Assembly: GCA_031268145.1 (NCBI GenBank)
Contig: JAIRXS010000020.1
Span: 1 to 64,000, forward strand
Length of the DNA: 64,000 nt
Direction of reading: 5' to 3'
From: Candidatus Endomicrobiellum siamense
GTDB taxonomy: Bacteria; Elusimicrobiota; Endomicrobiia; Endomicrobiales; Endomicrobiaceae
The notes under the pieces are model-generated. The model was not told the origin of the DNA. It did no database searches and was given only the letters and a program-made list of their open reading frames with translations. Each line of letters opens with the position of its first letter. Within the stretch, counting starts at the first letter, position 1. Positions 4,705 through 10,640 of the stretch are shown here, piece by piece. The translations under genes were made by a program, and so were the position numbers.

Positions 4705-7320
4705 TTAATTTGAACCACAACATTTTTTATATTTTTTACCACTACCACAAGGACAAAGATCGTTTCTTCCTATTTTGTTTAAATTATTAAGTTTATTAGG
4801 TGTTGCTTTCTCTTTTTTATTTCCTAAAAAACGACTTGAGCTTGTAACTTCTACATTGTCATTGCGTACTTGTGAGTGAGGAGGTTTTATGCTAACTTGA
4901 ACTTTAAAAATATATTCTATTGTGTTTTCTCTAATTCTTTTCATCATGGCTTCAAATAAAGCAAAAGATTCTTTTTGATATTCTATCTTAGGATCCTTTT
5001 GAGCATAAGCTCTAAAACCTATACCTCTCTTTAGTTGATCAAGCTCATATAAGTGGTCTTTCCAAGAAGAATCTATCATCTGCAAAAGAACCATTCTCTG
5101 TATTTGCGACATGAGTTCTGGGGTAATTTCACTTTTTCTTTTTTCATACGCCTCTAAAACTTTATCATAAATATCTTTCAAAAGAGCTTCTTTTGTTAAA
5201 AAACTTGTACCTTCTTCATTTTTTGACTCATAATGCATGCCAAAAGTCCTAGAAAGCCACGTATCTATACTTACAAAATCCCACTCCTCCGAATATTTTG
5301 CTGATGCCCACATATAAAGTTTTTCTTCTATAGATTCATAAATCATGTCTTTTACGGTGTCTGTAATATCTTCACCTTCTAAAATTTCATTTCTTAAATT
5401 ATAGACCGCTTCTCTCTGCTTATTCATAACATTATCAAAGTCTATTAATTGTTTTCTTATATCAAAATTCATACCTTCAACTTTTCTTTGAGCACTTTCT
5501 ACGGCTTTTGTTATCCATGGATGTTGAATACTTTCATCTTCTTTTAAACCAAATTTTTGCATTATAAGGGTCATTCTATCTGAACCAAAAAGACGCATAA
5601 GTTCATCTTCCATAGAAAGGAAAAATTTCGTAGAGCCAGGGTCGCCTTGCCTTCCTGCACGTCCTCTTAACTGATTATCTATTCTTCTAGATTCATGGCG
5701 TTCAGTACCTATTATACGTAAGCCCCCCAAATCTATAACTTCTTGATTTTGTAGCTTATCATGAGCACCAAGAACAATATCTGTACCTCTTCCAGCCATA
5801 TTTGTAGCTATAGTAACAGATCCCTTAGCCCCTGCAGCAGAAATTATTTGAGCTTCAAGCTCATGATACTTTGCATTTAAAACTTGATGAGGTATACCTC
5901 TATGCCTTAACATTGAAGCTATTTTTTCAGACTTTTCTATTGACCTTGTACCAACAAGCACAGGTTGTCCCTTTCTCCAAGATTCTTCTATTTCGTTGAC
6001 TATAGCTTTATCTTTTTCTTTCTCGGTCCTATAAATAACATCTGGATAATCTTTTCTCTTCATAGGATTATTTGTAGGCACTTCTACTACGCCAAGTTTA
6101 TAAATTTCCCAAAACTCTGCAGACTCTGTTGAAGCTGTACCTGTCATACCTGATATCTTTTTATACATTCTAAAAAAATTTTGAAAAGTTATAGTTGCAA
6201 GAGTTTGGTTTTCAGCTGCAATTTTTAGATTTTCTTTTGCTTCTACAGCTTGATGTAACCCATCTGACCATCTTCTTCCAGGCATAAGTCTACCTGTAAA
6301 CTCATCAACTATTATTACTTCCCCATTTTTCAAAACATACTCAACATCTTTATGATATAAATTGTGCGCTCTTATCGCTTGTGTTATATGGTGTACCCAT
6401 TCTGACTCTAAATCGTCATAAATATTTTTAACACCCAATATTTTTTCCGCTTTTAAAATACCTTCCTCGGTTAAAACTACAGATTGGTTCTTCTCATCAA
6501 GAAGATAATCATATCCTTTTGACAAATCCACATTATCATATTTAGCTTTTATTTCTTCACTTTCTGTAATTTTTCTCCCTTTTAACATAGGGACAATTTT
6601 ATCTGAAATATAATATTTATCTGTAGCCTGTTCTGCTGCTCCAGATATAATAAGAGGGGTCCTTGCCTCGTCAATTAAAATAGAATCTACTTCGTCTATA
6701 ATTGCATAATTTAAAGAGCGCAATACTCTCTCTTCTTTTGAAGTAACCATATTATCTCTTAAATAGTCAAAACCAAGATCATTGTTAGTAACATAAGTTA
6801 TATCGCAATTATATGCTTGCCTTCTCTCTTCATTTTTTGTTTCATGTCCAACATTGCCAACTGTAAGACCGAGCTTTTCATAAACTACACCCATCCATTC
6901 TGTATCTCTTTTAGCTAGATAATCATTAACTGTTACAATATGAACACCTTTCTGAGGTAACGCATTTAAATATGCGGCAAGTGTTGCAACTAAAGTTTTC
7001 CCCTCTCCTGTCTTCATTTCAGCAATCTTGCCTTTATGTAAAATGTAACCGCCCATTATTTGCACGTCAAAATGTCTTAATCCTATTGTTCTAACAGAAG
7101 CCTCTCTAACACAAGCAAATGCTTCTGGTAAAATATCATCTAAAGTTTCACCCTTAGAAAGACGTTCTCTAAATTCAACTGTTTTATTTTTTAAATCTTC
7201 ATCAGAAAACTGTTTTATAGAAGATTCTAAAGCATTGACTTTATCTACTATAGGCTCCATTGCTTTTATATCTCTTTCATTTTGAGAGCCAAAAATTAAA
7301 CCAAGAATTGTTTTTAACAT
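4705..7320 (-). CDS. secA: preprotein translocase ATPase SecA
   Basis: MKTGEGKTLVATLAAYLNAL, GRGTDIVLG, LRGRAGRQGDPG; C-terminal SEC-C zinc motif CPCGSGKKYKKCCG. Confidence 0.98.
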   Translation of the reverse strand: MLKTILGLIFGSQNERDIKAMEPIVDKVNALESSIKQFSDEDLKNKTVEFRERLSKGETLDDILPEAFACVREASVRTIGLRHFDVQIMGGYILHKGKIAEMKTGEGKTLVATLAAYLNALPQKGVHIVTVNDYLAKRDTEWMGVVYEKLGLTVGNVGHETKNEERRQAYNCDITYVTNNDLGFDYLRDNMVTSKEERVLRSLNYAIIDEVDSILIDEARTPLIISGAAEQATDKYYISDKIVPMLKGRKITESEEIKAKYDNVDLSKGYDYLLDEKNQSVVLTEEGILKAEKILGVKNIYDDLESEWVHHITQAIRAHNLYHKDVEYVLKNGEVIIVDEFTGRLMPGRRWSDGLHQAVEAKENLKIAAENQTLATITFQNFFRMYKKISGMTGTASTESAEFWEIYKLGVVEVPTNNPMKRKDYPDVIYRTEKEKDKAIVNEIEESWRKGQPVLVGTRSIEKSEKIASMLRHRGIPHQVLNAKYHELEAQIISAAGAKGSVTIATNMAGRGTDIVLGAHDKLQNQEVIDLGGLRIIGTERHESRRIDNQLRGRAGRQGDPGSTKFFLSMEDELMRLFGSDRMTLIMQKFGLKEDESIQHPWITKAVESAQRKVEGMNFDIRKQLIDFDNVMNKQREAVYNLRNEILEGEDITDTVKDMIYESIEEKLYMWASAKYSEEWDFVSIDTWLSRTFGMHYESKNEEGTSFLTKEALLKDIYDKVLEAYEKRKSEITPELMSQIQRMVLLQMIDSSWKDHLYELDQLKRGIGFRAYAQKDPKIEYQKESFALFEAMMKRIRENTIEYIFKVQVSIKPPHSQVRNDNVEVTSSSRFLGNKKEKATPNKLNNLNKIGRNDLCPCGSGKKYKKCCGSN

Positions 7321-7448
7321 TATTTTCCACCTTATTATTTAAATATTTATTAATTATAGCTTTATTTTTAAATATTTAAAATATCACATCATCGCACATA
7401 ATCTGCATATATTTTGTATAAGGATAAATAAAGACGACTAAACTACAA

Positions 7449-7496
7449 AAATAAAAAGAAGATATATGTGGTTTTTCATATATCTTCTTTTTATTT
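7449..7496 (-). terminator. A/T-rich hairpin terminator downstream of the MNT gene
   Basis: 20-nt perfect arms (AAATAAAAAGAAGATATATG / CATATATCTTCTTTTTATTT) with 8-nt loop. Confidence 0.75.
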
Positions 7497-7561
7497 CTCC
7501 TGTTACTTTTTCTCTTGTACTGCCCTACCTTATATCATAATCAGCTATTAATATCCATTCT

Positions 7562-7894
7562 TTAATTATATTTTTCATATATTGTTTTTCCCGCCTTTTC
7601 TACTTCGTATATAAAAAAACTACCTCTTTCTTTGTTTAGCATATATTCTGCCCTAGACTGGACCACTAAGTCCATAGGATAGACATACTTAACATTTATT
7701 TTAACTGCACAATTTCTCCTAATTCTCTCATCGGAATTTTTGACAACTAAGTCACTGTCTAAAATTATCAGTAAATCGATATCGCTATCTGACTTAGCCG
7801 TGCCTCTAGCATGTGACCCAAACAAAATTATCTTATAAGGATCGACAGGTTTCAAACTTTCTACTATTTTGTTTAAAATACTATTAATTTCCAT
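7562..7894 (-). CDS. MNT-type nucleotidyltransferase domain protein (orphan)
   Basis: GSHARGTAKSDSDIDLLIIL (GSx10DxD motif); paralogous to 16452-16805. Confidence 0.85.
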   Translation of the reverse strand: MEINSILNKIVESLKPVDPYKIILFGSHARGTAKSDSDIDLLIILDSDLVVKNSDERIRRNCAVKINVKYVYPMDLVVQSRAEYMLNKERGSFFIYEVEKAGKTIYEKYN

Positions 7895-7970
7895 TTACCC
7901 CCCCCTTCATCTGTCTTTATATATTTTTACCTTATTGCATTACTAATGTCAATGTACTGTAGAATATCAT

Positions 7971-8040
7971 ACACGACAAATACATGAAATATTTATCGAC
8001 GAAAGTCAACCTATCACTCTACCCTCTCCAGCAAGAAGAG
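7971..8040. repeat. MITE-like repeat, copy C (left half)
   Basis: CACGACAAATACATGAAATATTTATCGACGAAAGTCAACCTATCACTCTACCCTCTCCAGCAAGAAGAG, matches left half of copy B. Confidence 0.65.
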
Positions 8041-8372
8041 CTGTACTTATTTTTATAGATAACAACATTTATTTGATATTACATAAAAAAGTTTATACAA
8101 TAATTTATGAATAAATTTTATAGATTTAATCAATTGGAAACAAAGTTTATATCTTGGCTTACATATGATAAAGTTAAAATTATATTCTATAAAGATTTAG
8201 ATAAGTATTTGTCTAAAAATAGATATAAAAACAGATCTATAAGCAATATTACTTACATTACAGCGCCTAGACTAATTGACTGGATCCTACTCAAAGGTTG
8301 CTCCCTCTGCCTTAATCGTTTCTTGCAAAAATTGAAGACTTTACTCATAAAATATTTAAAGAGGTACATAAT

Positions 8373-10640
8373 ATGGAAAGTTTAAATACTAAAAATGAAA
8401 TTAAATCTTTTGTAGCCACGTGGCGTAATTTTGCCCCAGAAAAGCCTATTGAAAATGCTGTTATATATTTTTGGAATAGTCATAATAATCACCTTGATGA
8501 AAAAGAAATAATACAGGCCACAATTGATCTAGTACATAAAGATTTTAATTTAGAAACTTGTGAGAAATATGAAGTACAAACTGGGCACTTAAATCGTTGG
8601 AATTATATGACTAAAAATTTTGATGAAATATCTAAACAAGAGCTTGAACAAGCAATAAACAAAGGATACGAAGAACAAAACATTTGGATGCAAAGATGCC
8701 AGCGAGATCTACAAAACTTTATGTCTAAAGATTGGAAAGATTGTATTTCTGAAAAAGAAAACCCTTATTATGAGCAATGTAAACAATTAATAGTTGAAAA
8801 ATTAAAAAGCGATAAAAATTTTTTTGATGCTTTCTCAAAAACTGTTAGTTCTTATGCTGATAGACATGGAAAAAGTTTAAAAAATGGGGAGCAATACATT
8901 TTAGAAGAAATTTCTTGGATATTTAGCTTACCCTTGGTACATTTGAACAAAAATATATATTTAGTACATGTAGGCAACGATAATCCAATAATAAAAGAAA
9001 TGTTTCATAGCTTCTCAAATCTCAATAAGGCTGTAAAATGGCTATCTCCTCGCAGTAAAGAATTTACTTTTAAAAACGAAGCGGATTTTTTGATGTACTA
9101 TAATGTAAATCATCGTTACGCTGGTTACTCTTATGCTCTTAAAAATAAATATATTGTGGAAAAACCAACTTGGAAAAGATTTCATATTCAGCCCCCCCCC
9201 CATTTAGGTTTTGAGCCTATGGAAAAAACAATATTGCAACACATTATTGAAAAATTACCGTGTCATATTTATTGGTTAAATCGTGATAATGTGTATCTTG
9301 GTTGCAACCTAGAGCAAGCAAAAGATTTTGGCTTGAAATCCACACATGAAGTTATAGGAAAAAATAATTTTGATTTTCATGATTACGATACTGCTCTTCA
9401 ACTGAATAAAATTAATGAGCTTGTTATGTCAACAGGCAGGGCTTATGAAGGAGAAGAACCAGCCTGGATTGAAAAAGACACCGCTAATTGTTTATCTACA
9501 AAAGTTCCTCTTTTTGACATTCAGGGAAAAATTATTGGTTTACTCGGAGTCTCTCTAGACATAACAGATCGAAAAAGAGTAGAAGAGCTAGAGAAGCAAA
9601 AAGAGTTGTATGAACTAGCAAGAAAGGTAGCGCATGATATAGGTTCACCTTTACAAGCATTAGAGGTAGTACAGTTTATATCTTTAAAAAAATTAGACGA
9701 AAAAGAAAAACATATGTTTCAACTAGCAATAAAAAGTATACACGATATTTCAGATAGTTTGATAAAGAAGTATAGAAAAGAAGAAAAAATAAGCTATAAT
9801 AACAATTATATAGCGGTAGATTTAAGGATGAACGAGTCTATAGAAAGTAAGCGTTATGAGTACCAAGATAAAAGCCTAAGGATTAATTTTTATCCTGATG
9901 AAAGTAATAAATTTGTGTTTATAAAAGGAAATTCTTCAAATTTTTCTAGAATGATGTCAAACTTATTAAATAATGCGCTAGAAGCTATAGAAGATAAGGA
10001 AGGTATTATAGATGTGTCATATGAAGTCAAGGGAGAAGAAGTAGAAATAAGAGTAAAAGACAATGGCAATGGAATGCCCAAAGAGATGGTAGAAAAGTTA
10101 AACAATGGAGAAGCAGTGGGAAGCACAAGGGAGAAAGGGCATGGAATAGGAATGGAACAAATAATAACTACAATAAAAGAGATGAATGGAAAAATGGAAG
10201 TAATTTCTACTAAAGGAAGAGGTACAGAGTTTATGTTAAGATTTAATAAATCAGACGCACCAAAATGGTTTGCAAAAAAGATAGAGTTAAAGAAAGGGGA
10301 TACAGTAGTAATATTAGATGATGAGGTATTGATACATGAGGTATGGAAGGTCCGCTTAAAAGAGTATGAAAACAACATAAATGTTAAATATTTTACAGAA
10401 GGGTTAGAAGCTATAAATTTTTTAAATTCAATAGAAGATAAGAGTAAAGTATTTTTATTTACAGATTATGAATTGAAAGGACAAGATATAAATGGGATAG
10501 AAGTGATAGAAAAAAGCCAAATGCACGAAAGGCATGTTTTGGTGACAAGTAAAGATTTATCTGACATTAAAAACTTCAATGAAAAAATAAGATTATTTAA
10601 TAAACTACATCTATACGAAATACCTTTAAGTTTAGAATAG
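8373..10640 (+). CDS. hybrid sensor histidine kinase: divergent cyclodipeptide-synthase-like N-terminus, PAS, HisKA-like/HATPase, receiver
   Basis: Residues ~140-250 contain YILEEISWIFSLPLVHLNKNIYLVHVGNDNPI (CDPS YxxxE region); PAS/PAC LPCHIYWLNRDNVYLGCN...GLLGVSLDITDRKR; H-box VAHDIGSPLQAL; N/G boxes NNALEAI, DNGNGMP, GHGIGM; receiver VVILDDE...LFTDYEL. Confidence 0.8.
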   Translation: MESLNTKNEIKSFVATWRNFAPEKPIENAVIYFWNSHNNHLDEKEIIQATIDLVHKDFNLETCEKYEVQTGHLNRWNYMTKNFDEISKQELEQAINKGYEEQNIWMQRCQRDLQNFMSKDWKDCISEKENPYYEQCKQLIVEKLKSDKNFFDAFSKTVSSYADRHGKSLKNGEQYILEEISWIFSLPLVHLNKNIYLVHVGNDNPIIKEMFHSFSNLNKAVKWLSPRSKEFTFKNEADFLMYYNVNHRYAGYSYALKNKYIVEKPTWKRFHIQPPPHLGFEPMEKTILQHIIEKLPCHIYWLNRDNVYLGCNLEQAKDFGLKSTHEVIGKNNFDFHDYDTALQLNKINELVMSTGRAYEGEEPAWIEKDTANCLSTKVPLFDIQGKIIGLLGVSLDITDRKRVEELEKQKELYELARKVAHDIGSPLQALEVVQFISLKKLDEKEKHMFQLAIKSIHDISDSLIKKYRKEEKISYNNNYIAVDLRMNESIESKRYEYQDKSLRINFYPDESNKFVFIKGNSSNFSRMMSNLLNNALEAIEDKEGIIDVSYEVKGEEVEIRVKDNGNGMPKEMVEKLNNGEAVGSTREKGHGIGMEQIITTIKEMNGKMEVISTKGRGTEFMLRFNKSDAPKWFAKKIELKKGDTVVILDDEVLIHEVWKVRLKEYENNINVKYFTEGLEAINFLNSIEDKSKVFLFTDYELKGQDINGIEVIEKSQMHERHVLVTSKDLSDIKNFNEKIRLFNKLHLYEIPLSLE
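9192..9201 (+). repeat. C10 homopolymer inside CDS, candidate phase-variation tract
   Basis: CAG CCCCCCCCCC ATTTAGG: C9 gives immediate ATT TAG stop, C11 gives CCA TTT AGG TTT TGA stop. Confidence 0.6.

Follow-up and report, generated by a model that had tools for sequence, protein, structure and literature searches.

What signal would a histidine kinase receive through an N-terminal region that resembles an enzyme making peptides from charged tRNA? The window (the whole stretch of 64,000 nucleotides of Candidatus Endomicrobiellum siamense DNA analysed here, located on C44, one contig of an assembly totalling 1.26 Mb) raises this question at positions 8373..10640 of the forward strand, on which all features of the gene described below lie. 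An intact open reading frame starting with ATG at 8373, of which relatives are known, encodes a hybrid histidine kinase of 755 amino acids; direct reading of the sequence finds AGAGG, resembling a ribosome-binding site, at 8360..8364, 8 bases 5' of the ATG. The order of domains is an N-terminal domain like a cyclodipeptide synthase (CDPS), PAS, a DHp with H421, HATPase and receiver, and the same architecture occurs in 29 other aligned relatives. The kinase has no clear membrane helix (maximum 19-residue Kyte-Doolittle mean 1.2). A 92-residue open reading frame of unknown nature (8107-8385, +) overlaps the start of the kinase gene, and a small gene resembling, as judged by eye, an MNT-type nucleotidyltransferase lies at 7562-7894 (-).

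A preliminary description, made without database searches, had read the approximately 270 residues before the PAS domain as CDPS-like and the remainder as PAS, an H-box (HDIGSPLQAL), HATPase and receiver, and the latter part held. Pfam identifies PAS_4 at residues 293-402 (9249..9578; E 1.5e-9) and HATPase_c at residues 521-625 (9933..10247; E 5.8e-17), and the phospho-acceptor histidine H421 lies in HDIGSPL (9633..9635). The receiver-like domain (residues ~645-750; 10305..10622) is matched only weakly by Response_reg (residues 645-721, E 0.005, under the Pfam cut-off). H421, N534, D563, G565 and K744 are invariant across the 15 full-length proteins, T/S725 is likewise present in 15/15, the phospho-acceptor candidate D698 in 14/15, and D649/D650 in most. 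The hallmarks of a hybrid histidine kinase are thus present (phospho-acceptor His, N and G boxes and HATPase; DD, Asp, Thr/Ser and Lys of the receiver), and the kinase and receiver residues are intact despite the sub-cut-off receiver score.

We modelled residues 1-278 with AlphaFold2, run template-free on a 30-sequence alignment of relatives (A3), and compared the model (mean pLDDT 89.7, pTM 0.85) with known structures using Foldseek. Every PDB match at E<=1e-3 (40/40) is a CDPS; the best-ranked structures are XYP enzymes from Fluoribacter dumoffii, Nocardia brasiliensis and Rickettsiella grylli (top match F. dumoffii 5ocd, E 4e-9, TM 0.76 by target length), and two CDPSs are the top-ranked matches in a viral structure library. 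Tyrosyl-tRNA synthetases rank just below the CDPSs in the PDB search, as expected because CDPSs are derived class-I aaRS domains (PMC2922099). On the strength of this predicted model we consider it very likely that the N-terminal domain (residues ~6-265; 8388..9167) has a CDPS-derived fold.

A referee might object that the domain is unrelated to CDPSs and shares with them only a general resemblance to Rossmann-like or aaRS folds. Several results speak for this rival: residues 1-276 are covered by no Pfam family, PF16715 included, and curated CDPS cut-offs are unmet, the NCBIfam model TIGR04539 (tRNA-dependent cyclodipeptide synthase) matching residues 92-189, unprompted, at a sub-threshold 15.1 bits (E 0.012) against a cut-off of 45; a PDB sequence search with profile A1 returned nothing relevant; and hhalign comparison of A3 with NYH CDPSs gave only 0.4%. 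Against it stand the Foldseek list, composed of CDPSs with aaRSs below them, and the comparison of A3 with XYP CDPSs (hhalign, 94.2%, E 1.1e-7, 182 columns aligned, S36 and YILEE both falling in register), and we regard the rival as all but excluded. Comparison with NYH profiles alone would have misled us, XYP sequences being required. The six XYP-like reference CDPSs, not picked for resemblance to the window, emerged when PF16715 was run against 385 genomes belonging to the same class as one alphaproteobacterial relative. An XYP HMM built from these six and three PDB sequences scores 29 of the 30 domain members at E below 0.01; the search covered just those 30 sequences, so its E-values refer to a tiny database. 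We rejected descent from the neighbouring NYH CDPSs because the domain matches XYP and not NYH sequences; descent from XYP-type CDPSs, supported by computation and the predicted fold, is very likely. The CDPS-like reading of the preliminary description was therefore upheld by fold model, PDB structure search and XYP profile, and neither of the outcomes that would have refuted it (a non-CDPS fold, or no significant CDPS match) was met. It had also proposed an almost gapless match to an AlbC-type segment including the YxxxE pair; the YILEE match held, and the nearest subfamily is XYP rather than that of AlbC (NYH).

The active-site residues of CDPSs are S37, Y178, E182 and Y202 (PMC13062777), and the catalytic serine of Nbra-CDPS is S34 (PMC13062777). 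S36 of the window protein (8478..8480) aligns with this serine (AlbC S37, Nbra-CDPS S34): hhalign against XYP CDPSs places it in register, and the family pattern S36-HTKNPDDKxKIQATIDLI aligns gaplessly to Nbra-CDPS SVGADYHEGEKLAATIDLI. The preliminary description had taken the catalytic GxSxxN region to be altered (VIYFWNSHNNH), which failed in part: the serine within it is S36, so the nucleophile is not lost, and it is the Gly of GxS that is replaced, by Trp or Cys. Y175-I-L-E178-E179 (8895..8909) is the counterpart of AlbC Y178...E182, with YILEE aligned by hhalign to XYP YLLEE and Y175 and E179 matching CDPS Tyr178 and Glu182. S36, Y175, E178, E179 and H199 are invariant in 30/30 relatives, whose identity to the window protein is 36-63%, and dN/dS is approximately 0.2-0.4 in close pairs. 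The three residues that load the first aminoacyl group and then hold it, Ser, Tyr and Glu, are retained; that they still act in this way is inferred, with no biochemistry. A second rival makes the domain a non-catalytic sensor whose CDPS fold merely serves protein interaction or offers a pocket to some ligand, be it an amino acid, a nucleotide, uncharged tRNA or a host metabolite. Strong divergence, scores under the curated cut-offs, the replaced Gly and the absence of the XYP Pro203 favour it; against it, the invariance of S36, Y175 and E179 exceeds the needs of a bare pocket, and we think it unlikely.

The cyclisation tyrosine, Y202, is less readily placed. There are two candidates in Y196-L-V-H199 (8958..8969): H199 (30/30) has the AlbC spacing, at a strand end followed by V/I and Gly as in 'YPG', and Y196 (28/30; Phe in L051 and L052) has the XYP spacing. 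Pro203 is missing in both registers (V/I200 follows H199, and L/V/I197 follows Y196), hhalign puts a gap here and favours neither, and a single-sequence AlphaFold2 model of a true CDPS was too poor to settle the register (pLDDT 42.5). We lean towards H199, a modest preference inferred from sequence alone; the register remains unsettled, and should Y196 be the equivalent, the protein retains its Tyr and could possibly cyclise. The domain should not be classed as a CDPS enzyme, since it falls short of the curated cut-offs, lacks the XYP Pro and leaves Y202 unresolved; an enzyme of this kind is its ancestor, and it may work like one. These residues bear on another rival, a self-stimulating synthase and receptor, in which an active divergent CDPS makes a cyclodipeptide or dipeptide and the PAS domain next to it binds this product, so that the gene pairs described below would have a counterpart in cis. 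It is supported by the retained catalytic Ser, Tyr and Glu, by the possibility that Y196 is the cyclisation Tyr, and by true CDPSs encoded beside, or fused to, the same kinase type; PAS domains often bind small ligands. Against it, H199 is the better-placed equivalent of a residue strictly conserved in active CDPSs (PMC5935735), Pro203 is missing in either register, and a cursory look recognised no export or tailoring gene beside the window gene. We hold this rival to be possible, and the choice posed by the preliminary description, between a degenerate sensor and an unusual active enzyme under kinase control, remains undecided.

CDPSs of the other subfamily, NYH, are also coupled to such kinases. 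In 295 genomes of the phylum, bona fide CDPSs (TIGR04539) occur only in this genus, in 12 genomes, some with remnants only. In Endomicrobiellum the CDPS gene is followed immediately by a PAS-kinase related to that of the window wherever the downstream side is readable; the synthase gene thus adjoins the sensor kinase at these NYH loci, not at the window itself, and the NYH-type CDPSs at kinase loci exceed the Pfam cut-off. In alphaproteobacteria, an NYH CDPS is fused to a PAS-kinase in one open reading frame of 711 amino acids at L104 (= L088; L104:109-2241) and of 741 at L105 (= L090; L105:155-2377), the fusion at L087 (L087:1465-2334) is open to the contig end, and the two genes adjoin at L103 and L106. 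L104 has Cys at the cyclisation Tyr position of the other NYH-type members found here. A contig that is phage-like (exonuclease VIII, RecT and SSB genes) carries a CDPS gene and a PAS-histidine kinase gene that overlap, followed by a receiver gene (L089:3956-6208, IMGVR_UViG_3300049926_000093). On the Legionella lytica plasmid pLlyPCM2298_1, a CDPS gene overlaps a PAS-kinase-receiver gene by 14 bases (L111:3980-6734), and a transposase-like gene comes next; because the fused protein served as the query that led to this locus, it is not an unbiased count. In a tree of kinase cores, from which the phage-like-contig and Legionella kinases were left out, one 100/100 clade encloses both the domain-fused kinases and the CDPS-adjacent ones of Endomicrobiellum, and the alphaproteobacterial CDPS-linked kinases lie among domain-fused ones with weaker support (L105 and L106 on long branches). 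Because the two sets intermix, one PAS-kinase type has been joined to two CDPS subfamilies, the XYP-like domain and NYH. No other evidence argues as strongly as this recurrence that the kinase takes input from the CDPS fold. Apart from these loci, alphaproteobacterial XYP-type CDPS genes (L092-L094, L096) lie directly after, or overlap, an XRE-type HTH_3 gene, seemingly another recurring pair; the HTH was confirmed at four of the loci.

Our preferred reading is that the domain still uses aminoacyl-tRNA, by either route, a mechanism that is inferred and to which we assign a probability of approximately 0.5. The hybrid histidine kinase would use its XYP-CDPS-derived domain as an input module, and a regulatory input is the likely role of the domain. 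The domain would still dock the acceptor end of aminoacyl-tRNA, and S36 would be acylated by the aminoacyl group; both steps are inferred, without binding data or biochemistry, and whether aminoacyl-tRNA is the ligand could go either way. Since cyclisation is probably altered (His for a strictly conserved Tyr), the domain may linger in an aminoacyl- or dipeptidyl-enzyme state. In AlbC Y202F the aminoacyl-enzyme is still formed and dipeptidyl-enzyme accumulates (PMC5935735); that an arrested acyl-enzyme is the signalling state is our own inference from this behaviour, and we think it less likely than not. The acyl state, or a slow product, would be relayed via PAS to kinase and receiver, and the protein would report the supply of charged tRNA (amino acids), or a cyclodipeptide made from it, within the host cell. 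Fold and architecture have computational support; the mechanism is inferred. Against aminoacyl-tRNA use are the sub-cut-off CDPS scores, the want of biochemistry, the unsettled Y202 register and net charge, an uninformative proxy for tRNA binding that gave no support; the conserved residues could also conceivably serve a different ligand.

When one genome per species was scanned, by a pattern-based method that can miss divergent relatives, the domain was found only in Endomicrobiellum/Endomicrobium, in Holosporaceae/Holosporales MAGs and in two alphaproteobacterial PG1894 genomes; relatives were absent from the viral contigs and plasmids scanned. The carriers are termite-gut symbionts of two phyla (Elusimicrobiota versus Holosporales), the closest named relatives of the window being Candidatus Endomicrobiellum MAGs (Elusimicrobiota). 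Candidatus Endomicrobiellum inhabits termite-gut flagellates. Within the genus the domain is present in 16 of 42 genomes and decayed in several, and its tree requires at least four changes between phyla on well-supported branches. Misbinning of MAG contigs calls for caution over this cross-phylum distribution; G+C is 35-46% at Holosporales loci versus 30-36% at the window and sampled Endomicrobiellum loci, and several Holosporales loci lie amid chromosomal genes. The window's genome holds further partial kinase copies (G000:C18:6022-7326 and G000:C14:24119-24919), and other genomes of the genus hold decayed ones (G016, G018, G114, G185); many partial or decayed copies stop at contig edges, as expected for a repeated family. 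A kinase (L074) and CDPS/kinase remnants (L107, in G020) lie directly after secA, and in the window (4705-10640) the kinase is on the opposite side of secA; the secA neighbourhood may be a recurrent insertion region.

The window domain shares with the XYP CDPSs (F. dumoffii 5ocd, N. brasiliensis 5mlq/9i5m, R. grylli 5mlp) the fold, motif order and catalytic Ser, Tyr and Glu; unlike them it is fused to PAS, kinase and receiver, lacks Pro203, has Y202 replaced or displaced and the GxS Gly changed, and scores below cut-off. The NYH loci (L098-L106, L087, L089 and L111, in Endomicrobiellum, alphaproteobacterial symbionts and Legionella lytica) likewise combine a CDPS fold with a PAS-containing histidine kinase, closely related to the window's in Endomicrobiellum and some alphaproteobacteria, but their bona fide CDPSs belong to another subfamily and are mostly separate genes. 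A CDPS survey gives only tailoring and transport fusion partners (methyltransferase, P450 and ABC-transporter domains; PMC5816076); these too place a CDPS inside a larger protein, whereas the partner in the window protein is a signalling kinase. CqsA/CqsS and LqsA/LqsS are pairs in which a synthase gene lies beside its cognate sensor kinase, as at the NYH loci; their chemistry differs, and no diffusible signal has been shown at the NYH loci. Eukaryotic Gcn2 joins a HisRS-like domain to a protein kinase, so that there too an aaRS-related domain feeds a kinase; it differs in aaRS class, in having a Ser/Thr kinase and in sensing uncharged tRNA, and is an analogy, not a homologue. By this analogy, a bolder and merely possible reading is that a CDPS without cyclisation stalls as an acyl- or dipeptidyl-enzyme and forms a covalent sensor of aminoacyl-tRNA supply, driving a phosphorelay and exchanged between unrelated termite-gut symbionts.

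Many kinds of input domain are known for histidine kinases. We found no CDPS-histidine kinase fusion in the open literature searched, and no prior report there of a histidine kinase input domain built from a tRNA-dependent peptide-forming enzyme; subscription papers lay mostly outside the search, which is no proof of absence. The finding suggests an undescribed route by which charged tRNA, or a molecule derived from it, may be coupled to two-component signalling. Because such couplings involve two CDPS subfamilies with PAS-kinases, span phyla and also occur on a phage-like contig and on a plasmid of Legionella, the idea is testable in laboratory hosts. Should either charged tRNA or a cyclodipeptide prove to be what the domain senses, two-component signalling in protist-associated bacteria would be tied to amino-acid supply or to a cyclodipeptide signal.
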